From Filimonas sp. (GTDB lineage Bacteria; Bacteroidota; Bacteroidia; Chitinophagales; Chitinophagaceae), in contig JAFKHH010000029.1 of the NCBI GenBank assembly GCA_017306865.1, forward strand, positions 1-47,189: DNA of 47,189 nucleotides, given 5' to 3'. Below, in pieces: positions 5,941 to 18,735 of this stretch (positions within the stretch are counted from its first letter, which is position 1; every line of letters begins with the position of its first letter). The position numbers and the translations under genes were made by a program. The notes under the pieces are model-generated. The model did not search any database. It was not told where the DNA came from and was given only the letters and a program-made list of their open reading frames with translations.

Positions 5941-6633
5941 ATGATCTGTTTCGCCAAAATACCTCTATCAGTAAATATTGCATCCATGCAGCAGGAAGTA
6001 CTTTATCTGCCTGCCAGTTGGAAAGCCCACATGAATGTAGTGCAATACACAGGCGACTGGAATGTACTATCGCTCCGCTCCCCGGGAGGTATAACAGATA
6101 ATATCGTACCTGAAATATTAGACACTGAAACCATCACATTTAAGGATACGCCGTTGATGGAACAGTGCCCTGCCATACAAAAGCTGGTGGCATCGCTTAA
6201 TTGTGAAGTGTACGCTGTAAGATTAATGAATTTAAAAAAAGGGGCGACTATAAAACCACACCGGGATAAGGAACTGTGCTTTGAAAATGGCGAAGCACGA
6301 TTACATATTCCCATTTTTACAAATGACCAGGTAGCCTTTTACAGCCAGGATAACCTAATACCAATGCGTGAAGGTGAGTGCTGGTACATTAATGCAAACA
6401 TTACACATAGTGTGCAGAACAATGGCACCTCGGACCGCATACACCTGGTAATAGACTGTGCTGTGAATGACGCGATCGAGGCATTATTTGAGCAGGCTGA
6501 TAAAACAGAGAAGGCGGAGGAACTGGATGTAAATCAAACACTGGAAGTAATAAAAGCGCTGAGACAAATGAATACAGCAACATCGCTCGATCTTGCTGCT
6601 TCGTTAGAAACACGATTGCAAATAGAAGCATAG
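5941..6633 (+). CDS. Aspartyl/asparaginyl beta-hydroxylase family dioxygenase
   Basis: This protein belongs to the Fe(II)/2-oxoglutarate Asp/Asn beta-hydroxylase fold (PF05118 type). The iron ligands are visible: H107-x-D109 in TIKPHRDKE and H156 in NITHSVQNN, with R166 in SDRIHLVID as likely 2-oxoglutarate partner; RLHIPIF (H122) is also typical. Family members hydroxylate Asp, Asn or related beta-carbons, in proteins or in peptide intermediates. No signal peptide is visible, so it acts in the cytoplasm. ATG 5941 is the first start; ATG 5986 (MQQEVLYLP) gives a more conserved-looking N-terminus and may be the true one. The sulfotransferase gene begins 19 bases after the stop in the same direction, so the two are probably co-transcribed. 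The substrate is unknown; the neighbouring collar or collagen-like proteins are possible targets. Confidence 0.85.
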   Translation: MICFAKIPLSVNIASMQQEVLYLPASWKAHMNVVQYTGDWNVLSLRSPGGITDNIVPEILDTETITFKDTPLMEQCPAIQKLVASLNCEVYAVRLMNLKKGATIKPHRDKELCFENGEARLHIPIFTNDQVAFYSQDNLIPMREGECWYINANITHSVQNNGTSDRIHLVIDCAVNDAIEALFEQADKTEKAEELDVNQTLEVIKALRQMNTATSLDLAASLETRLQIEA

Positions 6634-6652
6634 GACTTTAATCGATCCAATA

Positions 6653-7612
6653 ATGACTACAGAGACAGGGCAAATTCTTTCCGGATGGATACCTTACAGG
6701 CTACAGCATGATACAAGTGCGAGATGGATGTATATGAGTGATATTCCATTTACAGATCCGTTCTTTTATGATACGCTTCAAAAAAGCAAGCAATTAAAAG
6801 AGAACAGCTCGCGGTATCGCTGCACGGCTTCGACAGACAGCCTGGAAGAATGGAGCAGGGAAATAGATTCGGTGCAACCATCTGCGTTTATTTTTCATGT
6901 ATCCAGGTGTGGCTCTACCCTGCTGGCGCAGCTACTGGGACTAGACGAGCAACATATTGTATTGGCAGAAACACCATTTATAGATGAGTTGTTACGTGCA
7001 AAGTATAAACCCGGCGGTAAAGACATGAGCTATATGTTGCCGTCAGCAATACCATTTTATGGACAAAAAAGAAATGGCAAAGAGAATAGGCTATTTATAA
7101 AAACAGATAGCTGGCATTTATTTTTTTACGAAGTGTTGCGCGATTTATACCCGGACATCCCGTTCATATTGTTATACAGAAGACCTGATGAGGTAATTGC
7201 ATCACAGGCTAAACTAAAGGGACAACACGCAGTAGAAGGCGTTATTGAAAAGGAACTATTTTCTTTGGGAGAGTTACCCCCTTTTCATCATAGTCCGAAT
7301 CACTATATGGCGGCCGTACTGGAGCAATATTATACAGCTATGTACCAGATCTGTCAAAAAGATGCCCATGCGCATTTAATGAATTATAACGAGGGCTTTA
7401 TACATATCACTGAAAAAGTATATGCACTTACTAATACGGAGCTAACAGCACAAAGGAAAAGTTCATTTGAAGAAAGATGCGAATATGACGCTAAAGCACC
7501 TAACGAAAAATTTAACCTGGCCCCCTCTGCTGCACAGGAAATACCGGGCTATATGTCAAAAGCATTTGAATTGTATGACCAATTAGATGCGCTAAGATTA
7601 GCGGGTGTGTAA
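6653..7612 (+). CDS. PAPS-dependent sulfotransferase family protein
   Basis: This 319-residue cytoplasmic protein has the sulfotransferase 5'-phosphosulfate loop, read as FIFHVSRCGSTLLAQLL at about residues 78-94. A later segment, PDIPFILLYRRPDEVIASQ, fits the 3'-phosphate-binding strand and helix with Arg and Ser. These enzymes move sulfate from PAPS to a hydroxyl or amino group of a sugar, lipid, peptide or small molecule. The adjacent, convergent APS kinase can make PAPS, and the hydroxylase gene just upstream could create a hydroxyl acceptor. The 3' end overlaps the APS kinase gene by 15 bases on the other strand. The acceptor is unknown. Confidence 0.8.
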   Translation: MTTETGQILSGWIPYRLQHDTSARWMYMSDIPFTDPFFYDTLQKSKQLKENSSRYRCTASTDSLEEWSREIDSVQPSAFIFHVSRCGSTLLAQLLGLDEQHIVLAETPFIDELLRAKYKPGGKDMSYMLPSAIPFYGQKRNGKENRLFIKTDSWHLFFYEVLRDLYPDIPFILLYRRPDEVIASQAKLKGQHAVEGVIEKELFSLGELPPFHHSPNHYMAAVLEQYYTAMYQICQKDAHAHLMNYNEGFIHITEKVYALTNTELTAQRKSSFEERCEYDAKAPNEKFNLAPSAAQEIPGYMSKAFELYDQLDALRLAGV

Positions 7613-8128
7613 TTGCTGCCTGATAAAATCAGTCAGCATAGTCACCGCTTCATCTGCAGACAAAATGGATGTGTCGATAAACAGGTCAGGATGAAGAGGC
7701 GCTTCATAAGGGTCATTTACACCGGTGAGATTATTTATTTTATCCGGATGATCATTGGTCAACAGGGCTTTTTTATAGAGTCCTTTTGTATCACGATCTA
7801 TTAATACGGGTAAAGGACAATATATATGTACGGTCTTCGCGGCATACAGATCAGCTAATTCTGTGCGCGCAGATTCATACGGATTGATGGCAGCGACAAT
7901 GGAAACAAAACCTTTCTTGTTATATTCATGAGCAACCCCACCGAGACGCCTGATGTTCTCGCAACGGTCCTCACGGGAAAAACCAAGATCAGCGCACAAT
8001 GTTTTACGATACTCGTCACCATCAATAATAGTGCAGGGTATCTGCAAAGAAGCTAGTTGTTCTTTTACTAAAAATGCAATTGTGCTTTTACCTGCACCAG
8101 AAAGACCTGTGAGTTGAATTAACAGCAT
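7598..8128 (-). CDS. cysC: Adenylylsulfate (APS) kinase
   Basis: This 176-residue protein makes PAPS from APS and ATP. It has the P-loop GLSGAGKST (residues 8-16), the DGDEYRKTLCADLGFS block, EDRCENIRRLG, and the typical end LTGVNDPYEAPLHPDL. The length equals that of a stand-alone CysC, with no fused ATP sulfurylase. No CysD/CysN or sulfite-forming reductase is nearby, so its job here is probably to feed the adjacent sulfotransferase rather than general sulfate assimilation. It is transcribed against its neighbours and shares 15 bases at its 3' end with the sulfotransferase gene. Confidence 0.93.
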   Translation of the reverse strand: MLLIQLTGLSGAGKSTIAFLVKEQLASLQIPCTIIDGDEYRKTLCADLGFSREDRCENIRRLGGVAHEYNKKGFVSIVAAINPYESARTELADLYAAKTVHIYCPLPVLIDRDTKGLYKKALLTNDHPDKINNLTGVNDPYEAPLHPDLFIDTSILSADEAVTMLTDFIRQQLHTR

Positions 8129-8191
8129 GTTGTATTTGGGTTGTAAAGAAAAATGAATTTATAAACAATAACCAATAGAATAAAGTTTTAA

Positions 8192-9265
8192 ATGGAAAGT
8201 ATTTCAGTAGGCGTATTGTTGCCATCATCCACCATTCTACCTATCAGTAAGGATTTTGAAAAAGGGCTGAAAGAGGGCTTGAAAAAAAATCCCGGGATCA
8301 ATGTAGATATTGTAAAAGAATTTATAGGGCAAGGGAGCTTAAAGCAAACTGAAGATGCTTGCAATAAATTATTCAATTATCACGACGTAGATATTGTAAC
8401 AGGTATTGTCTCTAACAGAGTAGTAGAAGACCTAGCTGAAAGTTTTAAAAACAGGAAGCAATCTATCATAATAAACAACCTGGGTGGTCATATCCCAAAC
8501 ATTAAAAAACTAAATGAGTACATATTTATTAATTCAATGCATCTGTGGCAACATGCATATACATTAGGAAAATGGGGCGTACAGGAGTTTGGCAAAAAAG
8601 GCATGTTTGTTAGTTCCATTTATGACGCAGGTTACAGTTTTTCACAAATGTTTCATATGGGCATGATGGATAGCGCCCCACAAAGCGAGTGGTCATTTTC
8701 TGTAACGCCTATGCCTGCTGCTGGAGAATTATCTGACATCAATGTTCTTTTTCCTTTCCTGGAGAAGTATGAACCTGATTTTATTTTTGCAACATTTTGT
8801 GGTGGCGAAACGACATTATTCTTAAATGAATTTATAAACAGGGGCTGGCAGCATAAAACTAAAATAACAGGTTTGCCATTTTTAACAGCGCCATATCAAC
8901 CATTAAAAGAAGACCTGACAACTTATTCAACATTGCCTTTCTCAAATGAACCGGATGTTTTAGCAGAGAAATCATTTTATCATTTAGGCTATCAGACCGG
9001 CATTACTATTAGTGATGCTGCACAGTCATCAGATGGCACAGATCTACAAAAGCAGGTTGAAAACTTAAACACCATGTTTTCTATTGCAAACAATAGCTCA
9101 GGTGATCAGTTAACAATTGTCAGGCAAGACTTGCTTGCAAATGAGGACAAACCGAAGCCATCTATTGTTACTCAATTTGAAACTTTTGACAAAAAAAATG
9201 ATGCTATGCAAACATTGCATGGCGATATAAATTTTGGTTGGGCTAATCCTTACCTCTGTATATAA
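8192..9265 (+). CDS. Periplasmic-binding-protein-like (type I fold) protein without signal peptide
   Basis: The 357-residue protein reads like the receptor-family ligand-binding fold of branched-chain amino acid ABC transporters: an N-terminal SVGVLLPSST strand, DIVTGIVSNRVVEDLAE, an IINNLGG loop, then YEPDFIFATFCGGET in the second lobe. Unlike exported binding proteins it starts directly with the first strand and has no signal peptide or lipobox, so it should stay in the cytoplasm. No ABC permease or ATPase gene is in the window. Its stop is 2 bases before the formyltransferase start, implying translational coupling. It may bind a small molecule for the cluster or act as a ligand-sensing partner. 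Its role is not known to me. Confidence 0.7.
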   Translation: MESISVGVLLPSSTILPISKDFEKGLKEGLKKNPGINVDIVKEFIGQGSLKQTEDACNKLFNYHDVDIVTGIVSNRVVEDLAESFKNRKQSIIINNLGGHIPNIKKLNEYIFINSMHLWQHAYTLGKWGVQEFGKKGMFVSSIYDAGYSFSQMFHMGMMDSAPQSEWSFSVTPMPAAGELSDINVLFPFLEKYEPDFIFATFCGGETTLFLNEFINRGWQHKTKITGLPFLTAPYQPLKEDLTTYSTLPFSNEPDVLAEKSFYHLGYQTGITISDAAQSSDGTDLQKQVENLNTMFSIANNSSGDQLTIVRQDLLANEDKPKPSIVTQFETFDKKNDAMQTLHGDINFGWANPYLCI

Positions 9266-9267
9266 CT

Positions 9268-10206
9268 ATGAGAATATTACTGCTTTGCAATTCGGATTCA
9301 CTGGCTATACCTGCAGTTATTGAAATGCAAAAAAAAGGAAACCTGGTTGCTGTAGGCGTAACAGAAAAATCTGGTAAAATATTAATTCCAACGTTAACCA
9401 GCGTTGGAGTGGAACAGGAAAATATATACACTTTAAACAATAAAAATTTTGCAGTAACACTTACGCAGCTCATCAAAGACTACCAGGTTGAAGTTGTTTT
9501 TGTGATGACGTTTCCATGGAAACTTCCCTCCTCCGTGCTGGCTTTGCCTGGGAAGGGATGTATCAATTTCCATTTTGGTTTATTACCAAAATACAAAGGC
9601 ACGGACCCTGTATTTTGGCAGCTAAAGAACATGGAGCAGAAAGGTGGCATCAGCGTGCATAGAATGACAGAAGAAATAGATGAAGGGCCGATTCTATTAA
9701 TTGATGAATTACCGGTTATACCAGGCGAAACTTTTGGTATTCATTGTCAGCGTCTTGGCACTTTGAATAGCAGCACTGTAAATAAAGTAATTGAATTATT
9801 AAAACAAAATGAACAGCCGCAGATAATACAGAATGATCAAACCGGAAACTATTTCAAGGCGCCTGATCGCAATGACCTTACAATCTCATGGAAAACGCAA
9901 TCAGCAGACGAAATAGAGTGGCTGATAAACGCGACGAACCCCAGGTACGGCGGAGCGTTGACAACCATTCGCCAGATGCAGGTGAGCATATTGGAAGTGT
10001 CTCCTGCCTCTGTAAATATGGACGCCAATAATCCACAGGAAATAGTTCCCGGAACTATTGTATATGCGGATATGGTGTATGGGCTAATAGTTGCATGCCT
10101 CAACAAACAGTTTTTGAAAATAAATATTGTGCATACAACGGAAGGCTATCTATCAGGCACAAAACTATTCAGCTTAGGTTTTAACACCGGTGAAACTTTT
10201 TATTAA
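9268..10206 (+). CDS. Formyltransferase family protein (methionyl-tRNA formyltransferase-like)
   Basis: This 312-residue protein has the 10-formyltetrahydrofolate-dependent formyltransferase core. The catalytic triad is intact: N100 and H102 in INFHFGLLPKYKG and D138 in EEIDEGPIL. The N-terminal MRILLLCNSDSLAIPAV strand starts the Rossmann-like domain, and the C-terminal third looks like the smaller OB-like domain. Similar enzymes formylate amino-sugars, ornithine or other amines; the sequence differs enough from housekeeping Fmt, and its setting is specialised, so a dedicated amine substrate is more likely. It follows the binding-protein-like gene by 2 bases and precedes three collar genes. 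Confidence 0.82.
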   Translation: MRILLLCNSDSLAIPAVIEMQKKGNLVAVGVTEKSGKILIPTLTSVGVEQENIYTLNNKNFAVTLTQLIKDYQVEVVFVMTFPWKLPSSVLALPGKGCINFHFGLLPKYKGTDPVFWQLKNMEQKGGISVHRMTEEIDEGPILLIDELPVIPGETFGIHCQRLGTLNSSTVNKVIELLKQNEQPQIIQNDQTGNYFKAPDRNDLTISWKTQSADEIEWLINATNPRYGGALTTIRQMQVSILEVSPASVNMDANNPQEIVPGTIVYADMVYGLIVACLNKQFLKINIVHTTEGYLSGTKLFSLGFNTGETFY

Positions 10207-10293
10207 TACAATTTTCACTTGAATAATAATCCAAAAAATGTCTCTTATCTCAAACAAAATAGTAATAGATTTTTTAACCTTAAACAAAAGATT

Positions 10294-10893
10294 ATGGAAG
10301 GAACAGTAGGCGAAATCCGCATTTTTGCAGGAAGCTTCGCACCACGCAGCTGGGCTTTTTGTCAGGCGCAGATAATTCCCATAAGACAAAACACCGCATT
10401 GTTCTCTATTCTGGGAACATACTACGGTGGAGATGGGACAACCACCTTCGGCTTGCCTGACTTCAGGGGCAGAACACCGGTAGGTGCCGGCCAATCACCA
10501 GGAAATTCCCTGTACACAATTGGCGAACAAGGAGGAGCCAATTCATGTACACTAACAATTAGCGAAATGCCTGCACACACGCATACTCCCGTTGTCACGC
10601 AACAGGGAGGCTCTGCAACTGCAACATTAAATGGCACCACCGCATCGGGCACACTACCTGCACCTGGTGGCAACTTAATAGCCGGTGATGGGAACCTCTC
10701 TATGTTTGCTCCCAGCAATAGTACGCCTGTAGCAATGGCACCTAATTCTATTGCATTCAGCAATGTGAGTGTGCCGTTGCCCTCGGTAACAACTGGTATT
10801 ACCGGAGGAAGCCAGCCACACAACAACATTCAGCCTTACTTAGCTTTAAGCTTTATCGTTTGTTTGACGGGCACGTTCCCTGCAAGAAATTAA
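10294..10893 (+). CDS. Tail collar domain (MdpB-like) protein, copy 1
   Basis: The 199-residue product has the phage tail collar domain first described in short tail fibres (PF07484): MEGTVGEIRIFAGSFAPRSW, then QIIPI..NTALFSILGT.YGGDG..TFGLPDFRGRTPVG in the first 75 residues, and the paired C-terminal motif HNNIQPYLALSFIVCL..TFPARN. The middle is a Gly/Ser/Thr-rich, variable region. Bacterial homologs are often called microcystin-dependent proteins (MdpB). No signal peptide is present. ATG 10294 is chosen because MEG starts all three copies; the frame opens 75 bases earlier at a TTG, which is not supported. First of a tandem triplet, with short spacing (23 and 30 bases). Confidence 0.88.
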   Translation: MEGTVGEIRIFAGSFAPRSWAFCQAQIIPIRQNTALFSILGTYYGGDGTTTFGLPDFRGRTPVGAGQSPGNSLYTIGEQGGANSCTLTISEMPAHTHTPVVTQQGGSATATLNGTTASGTLPAPGGNLIAGDGNLSMFAPSNSTPVAMAPNSIAFSNVSVPLPSVTTGITGGSQPHNNIQPYLALSFIVCLTGTFPARN

Positions 10894-10916
10894 TAACCTA
10901 ATTAAAAAAATATTTT

Positions 10917-11531
10917 ATGGAAGGAACAATGGCAGAAATACGCTGCTTTGCAGCAAACTTTGCTCCCAGGACATGGACGCTATGCTGGGGCCAGACAATT
11001 GGAATAAGCCAGAACCAGGCTTTATTTTCTCTTTTAGGAACAACATACGGTGGCAACGGCGTTCAGACGTTCTGCTTGCCTGACCTTCGCGGCCGCATTC
11101 CTGTTGGCACAGGGCAAAGCACAACGGGTGCAGGCACTTACACCTTAGGCCAAAAAGGTGGTGAAGAAACGCACACTATAATAACAACAGAAATGCCTAT
11201 GCACAATCACAATGTTACTGTAACAGCGGGGAGTGGTGCAGCAAATGCATCAGCCACTTTGAGTGCTACAAATTCGGCCGGAACATTATACACACCTGGC
11301 GGCAATGTATTAGGCGCTGATGATGGTAATGGGAACATAACGATCTATGCAGGCAGTGGTGCCGTTGCTGCAATGGCGTCTACTTCAATTACACTGAGCA
11401 ATCTTGTAGCGCCTACACTTGGTGTTACCTTAAATCCGACAGGTGGAACGCTTCCGCATAGCAACATTCAGCCTGTAATGGGTATGAACTACATTATATG
11501 CATGCAAGGGGTGTTCCCATCTAGAAACTAA
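10917..11531 (+). CDS. Tail collar domain (MdpB-like) protein, copy 2
   Basis: This 204-residue paralog keeps the collar frame MEGTMAEIRCFAANFAPRTW, GQTIGISQNQALFSLLGT.YGGNG..TFCLPDLRGRIPVG and the end HSNIQPVMGMNYIICMQGVFPSRN. The middle has more Ala/Gly/Thr and a DDGNGN stretch. It carries cysteines at CFAANF, LCWGQ, FCLP and IIC, several of them shared with its siblings. It is 23 bases after copy 1 and is surely co-transcribed with it. No signal peptide. A phage origin is possible for the domain, but no other phage gene is present, so these are probably host-adapted structural or surface proteins. Confidence 0.88.
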   Translation: MEGTMAEIRCFAANFAPRTWTLCWGQTIGISQNQALFSLLGTTYGGNGVQTFCLPDLRGRIPVGTGQSTTGAGTYTLGQKGGEETHTIITTEMPMHNHNVTVTAGSGAANASATLSATNSAGTLYTPGGNVLGADDGNGNITIYAGSGAVAAMASTSITLSNLVAPTLGVTLNPTGGTLPHSNIQPVMGMNYIICMQGVFPSRN

Positions 11532-11561
11532 CATATTTTTTACCAGTTAAAACAAAAAATT

Positions 11562-12170
11562 ATGGAAGGATATTTATCAGAAATACGCATGTTTGGCGGC
11601 ACCTTTGCGCCACGGTCCTGGATGCTTTGTGCCGGACAACAATTATCAATTAATAATTATACAGCACTGTTCGCCCTTCTCGGTACAACTTATGGCGGAG
11701 ATGGTGTAAATACTTTTAATTTACCTGATCTTAGAAGCCGTGTTCCTGTTGGTACAGGCCAGGGGCCAGGGTTAAGTAATTACCCGTTAGGTATAGTAAC
11801 AGGTACAGAAAGTGTTACATTATTGCAAACACAAATACCATCACATACCCACCAGACCACAGTTACGCCGGGTAGTGGCAATGTAACAGCAACAGCTACA
11901 TTACAAGCTAGCGCAAGTGGTGGAGGTGGTGGTACACCTGGCGGCGCATTATTAGGTACTGATAGCAACAGCGCCACTGTATATGCACCCGGCACCAGCC
12001 CTACAACACCAATGGCAAGTGCAGCAATTACAGTGACAAGCTTTGGCGGCCCAACCCCCAATGTTACTGTAGGCATTACAGGCAGTTCATTGCCACATAA
12101 TAATCTGCAACCTTATCTTGCCACGAATTATATCATTTGTGTAGAAGGTATTTTTCCGTCAAGAAATTAA
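11562..12170 (+). CDS. Tail collar domain (MdpB-like) protein, copy 3
   Basis: This 202-residue paralog reads MEGYLSEIRMFGGTFAPRSW, CAGQQLSINNYTALFALLGT, YGGDGVNTFNLPDLRSRVPVGTGQG and ends HNNLQPYLATNYIICVEGIFPSRN. The middle contains a glycine run (GGGGGTPGGALLG). The three copies have nearly equal lengths (199, 204, 202) and share both ends, while the centre diverges, as expected for trimeric fibre-like subunits with a variable display region. It is the last gene before a strong terminator (12196-12226). No signal peptide. Confidence 0.88.
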   Translation: MEGYLSEIRMFGGTFAPRSWMLCAGQQLSINNYTALFALLGTTYGGDGVNTFNLPDLRSRVPVGTGQGPGLSNYPLGIVTGTESVTLLQTQIPSHTHQTTVTPGSGNVTATATLQASASGGGGGTPGGALLGTDSNSATVYAPGTSPTTPMASAAITVTSFGGPTPNVTVGITGSSLPHNNLQPYLATNYIICVEGIFPSRN

Positions 12171-12195
12171 TGGGTGGAAATAAATATCAATGAAT

Positions 12196-12226
12196 AAAAG
12201 CCCTCAGATTGAGGGCTTTTGTTTTT
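12196..12226 (+). terminator. Terminator of the collar operon
   Basis: Arms 12196-12206 and 12210-12220 pair perfectly over 11 bp around a 3-base loop, followed by GTTTTT. It ends the plus-strand gene run that starts with the binding-protein-like gene. Confidence 0.88.
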
Positions 12227-12386: not shown

Positions 12387-14945
<2,559 letters not shown>

Positions 14946-14961
14946 TTATTTACTGGATGAT

Positions 14962-16323
14962 TTATTGTTTGATCACTTTATGTGCACGTTTCTCAATGTT
15001 CACTACACGTATATAGTAAATGCCTTGCGCCAGTTTACTGATGTCGCATGTAGCAATGTTCAGGCCTTTGACTGCGGCAAATTCTTTCTGGTCAAATACA
15101 TGGCCCAGGTTATCTACTACCTGTAGTATTACTTTCTGGTCTTTGCTGCTGCTGAAGCGAACGTTCACTGGTCCGGTAGATGGGTTTGGATATACCTGTA
15201 ATACCCAGTCAGGATAGCCGTCAATATTTACAGATACAATGTTGGAGTAACGCACTGTACCATCTTTGTACACCAGTTTATAACGGTAGTACATAGGGCC
15301 GGTTATCAGCTCAGGATCTGTGTATGCATAGTTATGCGAAACGCTGGTTGTACCAGACGCTGCAATGGTAGCAAAACGCTGGAAGTCGCGCCCGTTATAA
15401 GCACGTTCTAACTCAAAATGGTCTGTGTTGATCTCGTACATGGTGCCCCAGCTAAGATTGGATCTGCCGTTAACCAGTACTGCTGTAAAATATGCGGAGC
15501 GTGCAGGATCAGAAATATCACTTGCCAGTACGAAGCGGCCAAGTTGTTTTACACCGCCCAATTGTATATAGTTTGCAACCGGGTCAAACGCATTGTCTTG
15601 TTGCAGTATGCCGCCGGGATTTGTGTTAAACAATGAATATACTCCTAACTCACTTTCCAGCACATTGCCTAACTCCTGGTCAAAATAATAGAACCGCAAA
15701 ATAGCATTGCTGCTAAGTGGCGTAGTGGAATTGATGTCGAAATAGCGGTTGATACCAAAGTTGCCGCTTAATTGCAGCGCCTGGTGTCCTCTTTTAATAG
15801 TAGTAAGTCCAAGATTATCCCCTGTAGTTATTTCTACACCAATGTTGCCGGGGTTTGCTTTATTGGGCGCATTCAGTGTAGCTGTTTTCACCAGGAAACC
15901 GCCTGCAGCCCCTATTACACGTGCATTAGGGTTCTCTCCTGCAATGCTGCCTGTTGCACCAAGGTTCAGATCAGAACCATTGAGATCAATAAAACCATTG
16001 GTCATGCCAAGCGTATTCGTTACATCTATATTGCGAAGTAACTTGATCGTATTACCTGCTTTATCTATTGTAAAATTGTAAAAAGCTGTATTACTTGTAC
16101 CAGATACACTGGCTGCTGTAGCGCCGGTAAACAATACAGTACCGGTACCAGCGTTGAACGTGCCCGCATTACTAATGCCGCCATTGTTGACCACAATATT
16201 TGCAGCACCATTTACCACAACACTTCCGCCATTGTTAATTGTAAGGCCTTGCGCAGACGCAGCGTACTGCATTATACATGCAGACAAGGTGCTGAGTAGA
16301 AATAAGGATATTTTGGGTTGCAT
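14962..16323 (-). CDS. Type IX secretion substrate with C-terminal sorting domain
   Basis: The 453-residue protein has a signal peptide (about 1-24, ending in ASA), an Asn/Gly-rich beta-repeat region (VVNGAANIVVNNGGISNAG, GTVLFTG, about 25-200), an Ig-like module (YEINTDHFELERAYNGRDF, about 300-370) and a C-terminal sorting domain (LQVYPNPSTGPVNVRF to the end, about 375-453). The sorting domain marks export through the T9SS and fixing on, or release from, the cell surface. The protein is a surface or secreted protein without visible catalytic residues. It is the first gene of a probable two-gene unit with the collagen-like gene. Confidence 0.88.
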   Translation of the reverse strand: MQPKISLFLLSTLSACIMQYAASAQGLTINNGGSVVVNGAANIVVNNGGISNAGTFNAGTGTVLFTGATAASVSGTSNTAFYNFTIDKAGNTIKLLRNIDVTNTLGMTNGFIDLNGSDLNLGATGSIAGENPNARVIGAAGGFLVKTATLNAPNKANPGNIGVEITTGDNLGLTTIKRGHQALQLSGNFGINRYFDINSTTPLSSNAILRFYYFDQELGNVLESELGVYSLFNTNPGGILQQDNAFDPVANYIQLGGVKQLGRFVLASDISDPARSAYFTAVLVNGRSNLSWGTMYEINTDHFELERAYNGRDFQRFATIAASGTTSVSHNYAYTDPELITGPMYYRYKLVYKDGTVRYSNIVSVNIDGYPDWVLQVYPNPSTGPVNVRFSSSKDQKVILQVVDNLGHVFDQKEFAAVKGLNIATCDISKLAQGIYYIRVVNIEKRAHKVIKQ

Positions 16324-16493: not shown

Positions 16494-16856
16494 TTATACT
16501 TCCGTCTTTTTCGTTTCTTCTTTTTCTATCTTCTCTTTCAGCAAAGTCAACTCCTGTGTGAGTTTGGTAACATTTTTCTGCAACTTGGAATTGACTATGG
16601 AAAGATGTAGCAGGTAAATGAGTATAACGAAAATGAGTACAGTGAAGACCAGGTTGGCGGGCACATACACACCAAAAAGATTGGCAACAATATCTAACCC
16701 TTCTCTCCAAAAAGAAAACAGGGTAAGGATGGCGGTACACAGCAACCATACAATTGAATACTCTTCCCTCAGTTTTCCTTTTACAATAAGCCAGGAGATA
16801 TAGGAAAGAAACAGGACGTTGATAACGATGGTTATGATCTGTATGCGTGCCATCAT
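16494..16856 (-). CDS. DUF2304 membrane protein
   Basis: This 120-residue protein has three hydrophobic segments (about 5-25, 35-50, 65-88) and the family signature KGKLREEYSIVWLLC, followed by a short charged, coiled-coil-like tail (KLQKNVTKLTQELTLLKEKIEKE). This fits the DUF2304 family, which is regularly found beside polyprenyl-phosphate glycosyltransferases and is thought to help with lipid-linked sugar handling. It follows the glycosyltransferase gene by 21 bases and is surely in one operon with it. Another minus-strand frame at 16453-16749 overlaps most of it and is not coding. Confidence 0.85.
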   Translation of the reverse strand: MMARIQIITIVINVLFLSYISWLIVKGKLREEYSIVWLLCTAILTLFSFWREGLDIVANLFGVYVPANLVFTVLIFVILIYLLHLSIVNSKLQKNVTKLTQELTLLKEKIEKEETKKTEV

Positions 16857-16877
16857 ATATAAATTTTAATAAATAAA

Positions 16878-17582
16878 TTATTGCCGGACATATGCAAAGA
16901 ACATGGCAATAGTTACTTTGACAAAATAATAAAGTGTGGCGAGATGTCGTATAGAAGAATGTCCACCGAAGCGCTCTTTCATTACCACGGGGGTTTCGCT
17001 GATCCGGAAACCGCAGCGGGCAAATAGTACTAATGATTCCGGTTCCGGGTATTCATCAGGGTATGACCTGGCTGCAATAGCGATCGCTTTTTTATCGAGC
17101 AGGCGAAAACCGGAGGTAGGATCATAAATAGAATTGCCGGTAAAGATCCTGTTTAGCCAATGAAAATACTTAATGCCTATGCGCCTCGTAAAAGAAGACT
17201 GAAAGCCTGCCTTTTCTATAAAACGTGAGCCGACTACTACATTTGCATCCGTTGCAGCTTTGCATTGTAACAGTTTGCAGATCTCTGATGGCGGATGCTG
17301 TCCATCACCATCTACCTGCAATGCAAGATCAAAATTATTTGTATGTGCATATAAAAAGCCTGTTTGCATAGCACCACCAATACCCAGGTTTACGGGCAGG
17401 TCTAATACGATCACATCATTACTCCTGGCTACTGCGGCTGTATGATCTTTTGACGCATCATTTACAACAGCAATAGATATGTCATAGCCAGGTAATTGTA
17501 TTTGTTTTAACTCTTGTAATAAACCGGGCAGTGCTACGGCTTCGTTATAACAGGGAATGATGACTAAAACGGTTTGCGCCAT
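16878..17582 (-). CDS. Family 2 glycosyltransferase (polyprenyl-phosphate sugar transferase-like)
   Basis: The protein has the GT-A fold signature: VLVIIPCYNEAVALPGLL at the start, AVVNDASKDHT, LPVNLGIGGAMQTGFLYA, and the acidic nucleotide-sugar motif QVDGDGQHPPSEI, with GSRF and SGFRLLDKKA further on. This pattern is typical of dolichol/undecaprenyl-phosphate mannose or glucose synthases, which load a sugar on a lipid carrier. No large membrane domain is visible. ATG 17582 (MAQTVLVII) is chosen over the upstream M at 17639, because the 19 extra residues do not resemble the family. The gene is divergent from the dioxygenase gene at 17716. Confidence 0.85.
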   Translation of the reverse strand: MAQTVLVIIPCYNEAVALPGLLQELKQIQLPGYDISIAVVNDASKDHTAAVARSNDVIVLDLPVNLGIGGAMQTGFLYAHTNNFDLALQVDGDGQHPPSEICKLLQCKAATDANVVVGSRFIEKAGFQSSFTRRIGIKYFHWLNRIFTGNSIYDPTSGFRLLDKKAIAIAARSYPDEYPEPESLVLFARCGFRISETPVVMKERFGGHSSIRHLATLYYFVKVTIAMFFAYVRQ

Positions 17583-17715
17583 GAAGGTTTGCCTATTAGC
17601 AGTTATTGGGATTGCCGTAAAACTACACCCTTTTACCAAATAATATTCATGGTATTATTCCCGTATCACCATATATGCCCATTCCTTACCTTCCGCTCCA
17701 AAATCCATCTACAAT

Positions 17716-18735
17716 ATGTCTACGGTTGCACAACTCTCCCCTTCCACAGCTACCGGCACGCTAGGTATTATGCACCTGAAACGCTACTGGGAAAAAACGA
17801 TGGCACGTCGCAATGGTAAAACAGATGCACAATGGGAAGAGGAATGGAATACAGACACGACTATGCTTTCCATGCTTGGCCTGGGCCTGGAGCAAACTAT
17901 TGTTTACTTATTTAATGAAGCACCATCGTTCGAGACTTTTGAACAATGGATCACAGATAGAAATAATGGTACGCCTCCCATTGAAAAAATAGCATTGTTC
18001 AACCAGCTCCTGGCCGCACAGGACACTACATACGTTGAGCAAACAATAGCAGATGTATTAACAGCGGATGATCTTGCACATTGGGAAGCGCATAATTATG
18101 TAATAGTACGCAATGCTGTACCTGCAGCGGACTGTGATGCAACTATACAACTGATCTGCGATTTCCTGGAAGTAGATATAAACGAGCCGGCTACATGGTA
18201 TAGAGAGAACAAAGCCAGGCAGGGCATAATGGTACAATTGTTTCAACATGCACAACTGGAGGCTAACAGGCAATCGCCGCGCATTCGCCGCGCGTATGAA
18301 CAGTTATGGCAACGCAAAGATATTTGGGTAAATACGGACCGTGTAGGTTTCAACCCGCCGCAAACAGAAAGCTGGTACTTTCCGGGGCCAAGATTACACT
18401 GGGATGTGAGCCTGCAATTACCTATCCCGTTTGGTACACAGGGCATCTTATATTTATCTGATACGGCAGCCAACCAGGGTGCTTTCACTTTAGTACCAGG
18501 GTTCAGACACCAGGTAGCAAGCTGGCTGCATCAATTACCTGCTGATGCTGATCCGCGCAAGGAAGATTTGTATGCGCTGGGCGCACAGCCCGTAGTTGCC
18601 AACAAAGGAGACTTCATTATATGGGACCACGCATTGCCACATGGCAGTAGCGTCAATACATCCGACATACCACGCTTTGTGCAATACATTAATTACGCTC
18701 CGCTAAATGCAGAATTCCAGATGAATTGGATATAG
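17716..18735 (+). CDS. PhyH-type Fe(II)/2-oxoglutarate dioxygenase
   Basis: The 339-residue protein has a phytanoyl-CoA dioxygenase-like core at about residues 120-330. Iron ligands are H228-x-D230 in RLHWDVSLQ and H309 in HALPHGSSVN; R320 in IPRFVQYIN is the likely 2-oxoglutarate partner. An N-terminal helical region (GLGLEQTIVYLFNEAPSFETFEQW) precedes it. Family members hydroxylate small molecules, lipids or amino acids. The first ATG is at 17716; ATG 17770 (MHLKRYWEKTM) may be the true start. It is the second 2-oxoglutarate dioxygenase near the collagen and collar genes, but the substrate cannot be told from the sequence. Confidence 0.82.
   Translation: MSTVAQLSPSTATGTLGIMHLKRYWEKTMARRNGKTDAQWEEEWNTDTTMLSMLGLGLEQTIVYLFNEAPSFETFEQWITDRNNGTPPIEKIALFNQLLAAQDTTYVEQTIADVLTADDLAHWEAHNYVIVRNAVPAADCDATIQLICDFLEVDINEPATWYRENKARQGIMVQLFQHAQLEANRQSPRIRRAYEQLWQRKDIWVNTDRVGFNPPQTESWYFPGPRLHWDVSLQLPIPFGTQGILYLSDTAANQGAFTLVPGFRHQVASWLHQLPADADPRKEDLYALGAQPVVANKGDFIIWDHALPHGSSVNTSDIPRFVQYINYAPLNAEFQMNWI

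Follow-up and report, generated by a model that had tools for sequence, protein, structure and literature searches.

The DNA analyzed here is a 47,189 nt stretch (the window; contig JAFKHH010000029.1, our contig C16) of the 6.15 Mb genome of a Filimonas sp. At positions 5941-12170 it carries eight genes, which encode three tail-collar proteins together with an Asp/Asn beta-hydroxylase-family oxygenase (HX), a sulfotransferase (ST), an APS kinase, a protein with the type-I periplasmic-binding-protein fold (BP) and a formyltransferase (FT). We found that the collar genes belong to a conserved module of recurrently linked genes, that FT is replaced at other collar loci by a GNAT, the two being mutually exclusive, and that the type of enzyme matches the N-terminal sequence of the collars. 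In the reading we favor, to which we assign a probability of about 0.5, the collars would form a heterotrimer accompanied by a likely cytosolic BP, FT is predicted to cap the N-terminal Met, and a sulfated hydroxyl would be attached by the set of HX, ST and APS kinase.

The comparison covers regions around collar or BP genes from part of the family Chitinophagaceae and from other Bacteroidota genomes, plus 24 of the 76 plasmid records with collar matches. These loci were chosen by us and not at random, the first 42 being the window, the locus of Chitinophagaceae bacterium DXS (Danxiaibacter flavus, L016) and 40 further Chitinophagaceae loci picked by their collars; a collar was detected in 124 of the 125 loci read. 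An acyltransferase (FT or GNAT) is present in 68 of the 124 and BP in 55, and the module occurs in at least four bacterial phyla. Among the Chitinophagaceae collar loci (n = 42, window included), BP was found in 32 and FT in 28. DXS is the closest relative found, with a BP 80% identical to that of the window and the same gene order, the APS kinase being absent. This window type runs HX-ST-(APS kinase)-BP-FT-collars, while the commonest order is collar-collar-collar-BP-FT-large protein. A search of 296 Bacteroidota genomes with BP only gave 11 matches besides the window, none from the window's family, and all 11 of the loci picked in this way have a same-strand collar gene 14-86 bp away.

Outside Bacteroidota, annotated trios stand beside a GNAT in Deinococcus, Ruegeria, Paenibacillus, Aminobacter, Comamonas, Azospirillum, Rhizobium, Pontibrevibacter, Phyllobacterium and Sinorhizobium. 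BP accompanies collars mainly in Bacteroidota but also in Deinococcus, where two trios have both BP and GNAT; weak BP matches were obtained in 11 plasmid records, one of which (Deinococcus KNUC1210) is a collar locus. No acyltransferase was found beside the collars in the Deinococcus QL22, second KNUC1210 plasmid, Tistrella and Tateyamaria records, or adjacent to the collar in the single-collar Hymenobacter, Aliiroseovarius and Burkholderia records, the Burkholderia collar lying beside a phage tape-measure gene. The original prediction for this DNA, a modification system built around three collar proteins, had named co-occurrence of the families across Bacteroidota as its check, and the claim survived it: collars and acyltransferase are found together across phyla, collars and BP in Bacteroidota and Deinococcus, and HX or ST recurs beside collars in several Bacteroidota families. 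Two stricter partnerships were considered and given up. BP is not a universal partner (55/124 loci overall, 5/26 GNAT loci), and the large neighboring protein is not a strict one, an open reading frame (ORF) of at least 600 aa lying within 2.5 kb in 62 of the 91 loci with full flanks, a count that leaves out overlapping genes, is thus conservative and comes with no computed background rate.

By ACYLTRANSFERASE at collars, the 124 loci divide into 42 with FT, 26 with GNAT, 0 with both and 56 with neither; use of the two enzymes at collar loci is mutually exclusive. Collars occur singly or in threes, and the acyltransferase accompanies mainly multi-collar loci (63/86, vs 5/38 single-collar loci). 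In the family, 75 of 244 genomes have collars, with matches per genome peaking at 1 (28 genomes) and 3 (31 genomes). Judged by profile scores, the families nearest to FT and GNAT are Fmt and RimI, which act on alpha-amines. Fmt (TIGR00460) was the best NCBIfam match for 2/2 FTs scanned, the window FT scoring 106.5 bits against a cut-off of 201.5, and RimI (TIGR01575) was the best for 7/7 GNATs scanned, all below the curated cut-offs. The FT residues N100-x-H102...D138, which we take to be catalytic in the 10-formyl-tetrahydrofolate formyltransferase fold, are kept in 43/43 relatives. The housekeeping Fmt is intact elsewhere in the genome (G000:C1, 284 bits), FT being a separate gene.

The starts of the collars were inspected after the FT/GNAT exchange had been seen, and new loci were fetched afterwards. 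Starts were assigned by one rule for all collars, namely the Met closest to a set distance from a motif; of the 302 collars in the 124 loci, 32 were left unscored (2 from FT loci, 5 from GNAT loci and 25 from loci with neither). The second residue is small in 61/68 GNAT-locus collars (Ala, Ser or Thr in 58), 11/130 FT-locus collars and 15/72 collars from loci with neither. In the loci fetched after the hypothesis, it is small in 36/41 GNAT and 4/17 FT collars (p = 4e-6, to be read with the caveat that collars from the same locus are not independent and that L170 is a near-repeat of L110). The enzyme type is also matched by the register of the sequence that follows. The E of an E-I-R motif is at index 7 in 47/49 GNAT-locus collars with a small second residue and at index 6 both in 60/63 FT-locus collars with a large one and in 6/6 GNAT-locus collars with a large one. 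Under the general rule for which initiator Met is removable, GNAT-locus collars with a removable Met thus have one extra residue, and this shift would bring the predicted mature N-terminus into register across the types, mixed trios included. Both types are found in genome G206, with an FT trio beginning MDGT/MEGY/MEGT and a GNAT trio beginning MAEPF/MAQPY/MDPF. There is, then, a match between enzyme type and collar N-terminal sequence, and from the FT/GNAT exchange together with the residue and register pattern we infer that the acyltransferase caps the collar N-termini with a small acyl group.

The three window collars are the only PF07484 matches in the source genome, and profile searches with the collars gave T4 gp12 (1ocy, 8.6e-07) and a long tail fiber (8kec, 3.4e-09). 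In 62 aligned collars, the invariant columns are at 11-97 and 174-201, which agrees with the earlier description of these proteins as variable in the middle and conserved at both ends. A tree was built from 120 collars, those of L081 and of 34 three-collar loci, and gene position is strongly clustered in it: 29 changes were counted (2 would be perfect), compared with a mean of 56.9 upon shuffling, and 0 of 200 shuffles were as low. Since there are 29 changes and not 2, the positions are lineages within subgroups and not tree-wide. For the window type, the first, second and third collars form separate groups, each position being shared by the window, L016, L063 and L073. L081 (genome G421) has 18 tandem collar genes, corresponding to six triplets, followed by a formyltransferase; the genes of these triplets group by position, and the second collars join the second collar of L066. 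The trios of L080, L094 and L054, and of L058 with L076, group by locus in the tree, suggesting repeated triplication. The window's three consecutive same-strand collar genes of ~200 aa each have the arrangement seen in the virophage DSLV2, for which PMC12724248 describes three consecutive PF07484 proteins of 196-247 aa, with a conserved collar and a variable head, that co-purify as three bands with a native mass near that of a heterotrimer. By analogy, the three collars are likely subunits of one 1:1:1 heterotrimer.

The AlphaFold2 model of BP (pLDDT 91.6) has the type-I binding-protein fold. Its first strand spans residues 3-10, and neither this model nor the starts of the relatives, as read, gave any indication of a signal peptide (a reading made without a signal predictor), in line with the earlier description of a signal-less binding protein; BP is likely cytosolic. 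Foldseek matches were to LivJ/AmiC-type folds, aromatic-acid-binding proteins and UrtA, with 10-17% identity in the listed matches (11-12% for AmiC). A C-terminal tail, W-x-N-x-[YF]-x-C, is found in 45/56 relatives and W350 in 55/56, and the model is of low confidence over the last dozen residues. A tail that is conserved yet flexible suggests docking, and BP may be a chaperone or carrier that acts through it.

HX and ST are optional add-ons. HX is encoded within 4 kb of the collar array in 14/124 loci, including the GNAT trios of L128 and Pseudoalteromonas L165, and is fused to ST beside the collars in two loci beyond the 14, L083 and L104; ST is found in 8/124. The HX residues H107-x-D109...H156, presumably metal ligands, are kept in 16/16 relatives, and ST residues H82, R85-C-G-S-T-L90, R176 and S184, which we take to be phosphosulfate (PAPS) motifs, in 9/9. 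Genomes with PF05118 are enriched for collars (30/39 vs 75/244 overall, p = 8e-11), as are those with the short HX type (29/30, the cut for which was chosen after the scores had been seen). In the source genome, ST is the sole PF13469 match and the APS kinase the sole PF01583 match (other sulfotransferase families were not searched). Read most simply, HX would first hydroxylate a substrate and ST would then sulfate the hydroxyl so made, using PAPS supplied by the kinase encoded next to it.

Two further ideas about HX and the APS kinase were given up. The APS kinase, present in the window and L073, with weaker matches in L066 and L104 and probably in G308, is absent from the DXS cluster and from most loci, and all 7 genomes tested have one or more APS kinase matches somewhere; it is not part of the core. 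A collar residue specific to HX loci was also sought, and none is exclusive; within the FT set plus L051, 0.97 of the collars from HX loci have the C-terminal Asn or Asp, as against 0.60 of the others, a difference confounded by descent.

In the mechanism we propose, the three tandem collars would assemble as one heterotrimer. FT would be a protein N-alpha-formyltransferase where the initiator Met is retained, and GNAT an N-alpha-acetyltransferase where the Met is removed, leaving mostly Ala, Ser or Thr. BP would serve as chaperone or carrier through its C-terminal tail, and HX and then ST, with PAPS from the adjacent kinase, would place a sulfated hydroxyl on the same complex. The capped trimer may be a receptor-binding tip, perhaps together with the large protein often encoded alongside. 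A more specific version, put forward tentatively, casts FT as a dedicated protein N-terminal formyltransferase that would put or keep the formyl group on the retained Met of the three-subunit tip and be evolutionarily interchangeable with a RimI-like acetylator of Ala, Ser or Thr, with an HX-ST relay writing a sulfated hydroxy residue on the window-type tip. To our knowledge, such a formyltransferase would be the first of its kind.

Several observations weigh against this mechanism. The collar model was poor (pLDDT 60.9) and was left out of the fold search, and no Asp/Asn column of the collars is confined to HX loci. Neither FT nor GNAT was found within the search span used at 23/86 multi-collar loci, BP is scarce at GNAT loci, and the loci that went into the GNAT model came from the same, non-randomly chosen set. 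A model of dependent evolution, which fits the association of enzyme and collar start better and speaks for the mechanism (likelihood ratio 39.3, p = 6e-8), uses a single tree and linked collars, and tree-aware pairs on well-supported branches yield 2 independent switches, too few for significance. Collars from loci with neither enzyme mostly begin with Met-Asp/Glu (47/72; 57 have a second residue that is not small), and since these loci resemble FT loci at residue 2, the rule is less strong for FT than for GNAT. The FT loci L093, L094, L138 and L139, with MSTEPF collars, depart from the pattern in residue as well as in register (index 8). Finally, the sugar enzyme ArnA (95.8 bits) and PRK06988 (95.2 bits) score only a little lower with FT than Fmt does (106.5 bits).

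The few switches, the FT-like loci with neither enzyme, the MSTEPF exceptions and the proximity of FT to ArnA make a glycan target a live rival, albeit one we consider unlikely. Here the enzymes would decorate a surface glycan or lipid: FT or GNAT would N-acylate an amino sugar, ST would sulfate it, and HX would have a role like that of LpxO toward lipid A, while the collars, as lectin-like proteins, would read the decorated glycan. Counted in its favor are the known decoration of glycans or lipids by N-formyl/N-acetyl exchange, sulfation, carbamoylation and lipid hydroxylation, the weak LpxO match of HX (NF033391, 22 bits against a cut-off of 500), the amino-sugar acetyltransferase PseH as second, weak match of two GNATs (L111 and L115), and a GtrB-like glycosyltransferase gene nearby. 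The DSLV2 trio is also reported to bind lipopolysaccharide (PMC12724248). A glycan target does not predict the match in second residue and register, however, and RimI is the best match of 7/7 GNATs scanned. In addition, no amino-sugar synthesis gene was seen among the neighbors annotated, which are not all the neighbors.

A second alternative, which we regard as unlikely, retains a collar-BP-FT operon and makes HX, ST and the APS kinase unrelated neighbors of it. Both HX (14 loci plus the 2 fusions) and ST (8) are absent from most of the 124 loci, and the APS kinase is on the opposite strand. Moreover, HX lies away from the listed collars in 16 of the 30 short-HX genomes, a further point against the mechanism proposed above; HX-collar linkage is thus far from strict. 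Against chance proximity, a listed collar lies no more than 8 kb from HX in 13 of these 30 genomes (1 could not be assigned), the enrichment of collars in PF05118 genomes is strong, HX recurs beside collars in several families and in Pseudoalteromonas L165, and the HX-ST fusions are themselves encoded beside collars.

We think it improbable that the collars are fiber tips of a contractile tail-like particle encoded elsewhere, with the enzymes maturing the tips. Sheath-like proteins are encoded on contigs C41 and C42 of the source genome (L174 and L175), and collars are found in 31/72 genomes with a sheath, above the expectation from 75/244 overall (p = 0.0095). However, no sheath relative was detected at E 1e-10 in 44/75 genomes with collars, for which reason collars as obligate tips of a sheathed particle were rejected, and no structural genes were found beside the collars: PHROGs searches of the 8 cluster proteins and 10 neighboring proteins, with the rest of the window inspected by eye, detected no adjacent virion structural genes, as originally stated, the sole virion-family match among the neighbors being a low-complexity collagen-like repeat protein. 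As a separate observation on C42, two short tube-like ORFs, noted by eye, lie beside the sheath gene, possibly an extracellular contractile injection system. The least probable alternative, that the enzymes make an amino-acid-derived small molecule bound by BP and displayed by the collars, has in its favor that the fold of BP is of an amino-acid/amide-binding kind, that HX weakly matches a non-proteinogenic amino acid hydroxylase (33.9 bits, cut-off 300) and that RiPP-like genes lie near collars in L115, L156 and L163, but BP and collars also occur where HX, ST and FT were not found (e.g., L085-L088), neither a peptide synthetase nor a precursor gene was noticed in the cluster of the window, no specific search having been made, and display of a small molecule, part of the original prediction, gained no specific support.

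The features of the window are listed in Table 1. All eight genes named by the original prediction within 6.2 kb were confirmed by Pfam and NCBIfam profile searches to encode the named domains, and a single terminator-like hairpin closes the cluster as had been described, though a consensus terminator scanner did not list it. The APS kinase gene overlaps the 3´ end of ST by 15 bp, and the eight genes are not one operon because this gene is on the minus strand.

Table 1. Features of the cluster and its neighbors in the window.
Feature	Coordinates	Strand	Evidence
HX, Asp/Asn beta-hydroxylase-family oxygenase, 230 aa, accessory	5941..6633	+	PF05118, 70 bits (cut-off 22.6)
ST, sulfotransferase, 319 aa, accessory	6653..7612	+	PF13469, 36.4 bits (cut-off 27)
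APS kinase, 176 aa	7598..8128	-	PF01583; TIGR00455, 150.1 bits (cut-off 138.7)
BP, type-I periplasmic-binding-protein fold, 357 aa	8192..9265	+	PF13458
FT, formyltransferase, 312 aa, Fmt relative	9268..10206	+	PF00551 and PF02911
Collar protein 1, 199 aa from ATG, MEGTVGEIR...	10294..10893	+	PF07484, 89.2 bits (cut-off 24)
Collar protein 2, 204 aa, MEGTMAEIR...	10917..11531	+	PF07484, 87.9 bits (cut-off 24)
Collar protein 3, 202 aa, MEGYLSEIR...	11562..12170	+	PF07484, 95.6 bits (cut-off 24)
Intrinsic-terminator-like hairpin, then T-rich stretch	12192..12224	+	-20.1 kcal/mol, z -5.7
Collagen-like repeat protein, 843 aa, recurrent neighbor of window-type loci	12387..14918	-	NCBIfam SclB-like, 257.5 bits (below cut-off 325)
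T9SS type A sorting-domain protein, 453 aa, recurrent neighbor	14962..16323	-	TIGR04183, 34 bits (cut-off 23)
GtrB-like glycosyltransferase	16494..17639	-	
Phytanoyl-CoA dioxygenase-family protein	17716..18735	+	PF05721
HEAGH-motif protein, 185 aa	27664..28221	-	

Some neighbors recur. G-x-y repeat proteins are encoded near collars in the window, L016, L063, L073, L080 and L104, and the GtrB-like glycosyltransferase gene, with a companion of 115-134 aa, recurs near the window-type loci L016, L063 and L073. A phytanoyl-CoA dioxygenase-family protein is also encoded near the cluster. Look-alikes of the window's HEAGH-motif protein were seen by eye near collars in L048, L051, L054, L059, L071 and L083; one protein of this type is fused to HX (L070_6440, 409 aa), and the L051 relative has no Pfam match. 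A conserved protein of 233-313 aa with weak UshA-like similarity (f9) is encoded near collars in L049, L050, L051, L060, L067, L077 and L083, adjoining GNAT in 4 of these 7 loci. Lasso-B2 genes lie near collar trios in L115 and L163 (Azospirillum plasmids) and L156 (Deinococcus QL22 plasmid), in company typical of ribosomally synthesized and post-translationally modified peptides (RiPPs): PqqD in L115 and L156, and asparagine-synthase-like and 2-oxoglutarate oxygenase genes in L115 and L163. The collar trio of L168 (Tateyamaria omphalii plasmid), where FT and GNAT were not detected, is accompanied by carbamoyltransferase and sulfotransferase genes, and a carbamoyltransferase gene is also found in L051. 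The carbamoyltransferase and RiPP-type genes suggest the recruitment of other modifiers to some of the collar loci.

Overall, a modification system around three collars is partly supported. The recurrent module stands, and the threesome matters, by analogy as likely heterotrimer subunits; the center differs from the one first proposed, with the acyltransferase and BP as the frequent partners and HX, ST and the APS kinase as accessories. The system is thereby recentered on a likely three-subunit tip with predicted N-terminal capping, to which hydroxylation and sulfation would be optional additions. The free-standing "tail fiber" or "microcystin-dependent" proteins (COG4675) have a wide distribution in bacteria, but the literature searched gave no described function for them. 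PMC5579227 lists COG4675 in soil metaproteomes, assigned partly to Pedobacter. No description of the module was found in the literature on collars/COG4675 or on N-terminal formylation and acetylation, as covered by open-access papers. The reading favored here would give these proteins a subunit rule (three), regular partners (an acyltransferase and BP) and a chemistry at the N-terminal amine. If FT does act on protein, it would add a new kind to the post-translational modifications of bacteria, and exchange of FT for GNAT would mean that the complex needs N-terminal capping and not a particular acyl group.

Each component resembles a known protein and departs from it. FT shares with Fmt the fold, the N-H-D residues and the best family match, but scores below the TIGR00460 cut-off in a genome that has a separate Fmt. 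The GNATs that stand in the place of FT elsewhere have as best match RimI, the S18-alanine N-acetyltransferase that acts on an N-terminal alanine, but are below its cut-off, and none is in the window cluster. BP shares its fold with AmiC and LivJ-type binding proteins, of which AmiC is also signal-less, and differs from them in its low identity, its W-x-N-x-Y-x-C tail and its linkage to collars; it likewise has the fold of the solute-binding proteins of ABC transporters, while an export signal was not seen. The collar domain is shared with the T4 short tail fiber gp12 and phage long tail fibers, whereas the window collars have no shaft, no adjacent virion genes were found, and there are three paralogues instead of one. 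A term search of the main text of PMC12724248 did not return "formyltransferase", "acetyltransferase" or "substrate-binding". DSLV2 is a close parallel to the trio, with three consecutive same-strand PF07484 genes of similar length, though the heterotrimer is reported for DSLV2 and predicted here; the DSLV2 trio is viral and lies beside a minor capsid gene, whereas the trio described here belongs to a chromosomal module with enzymes and BP.

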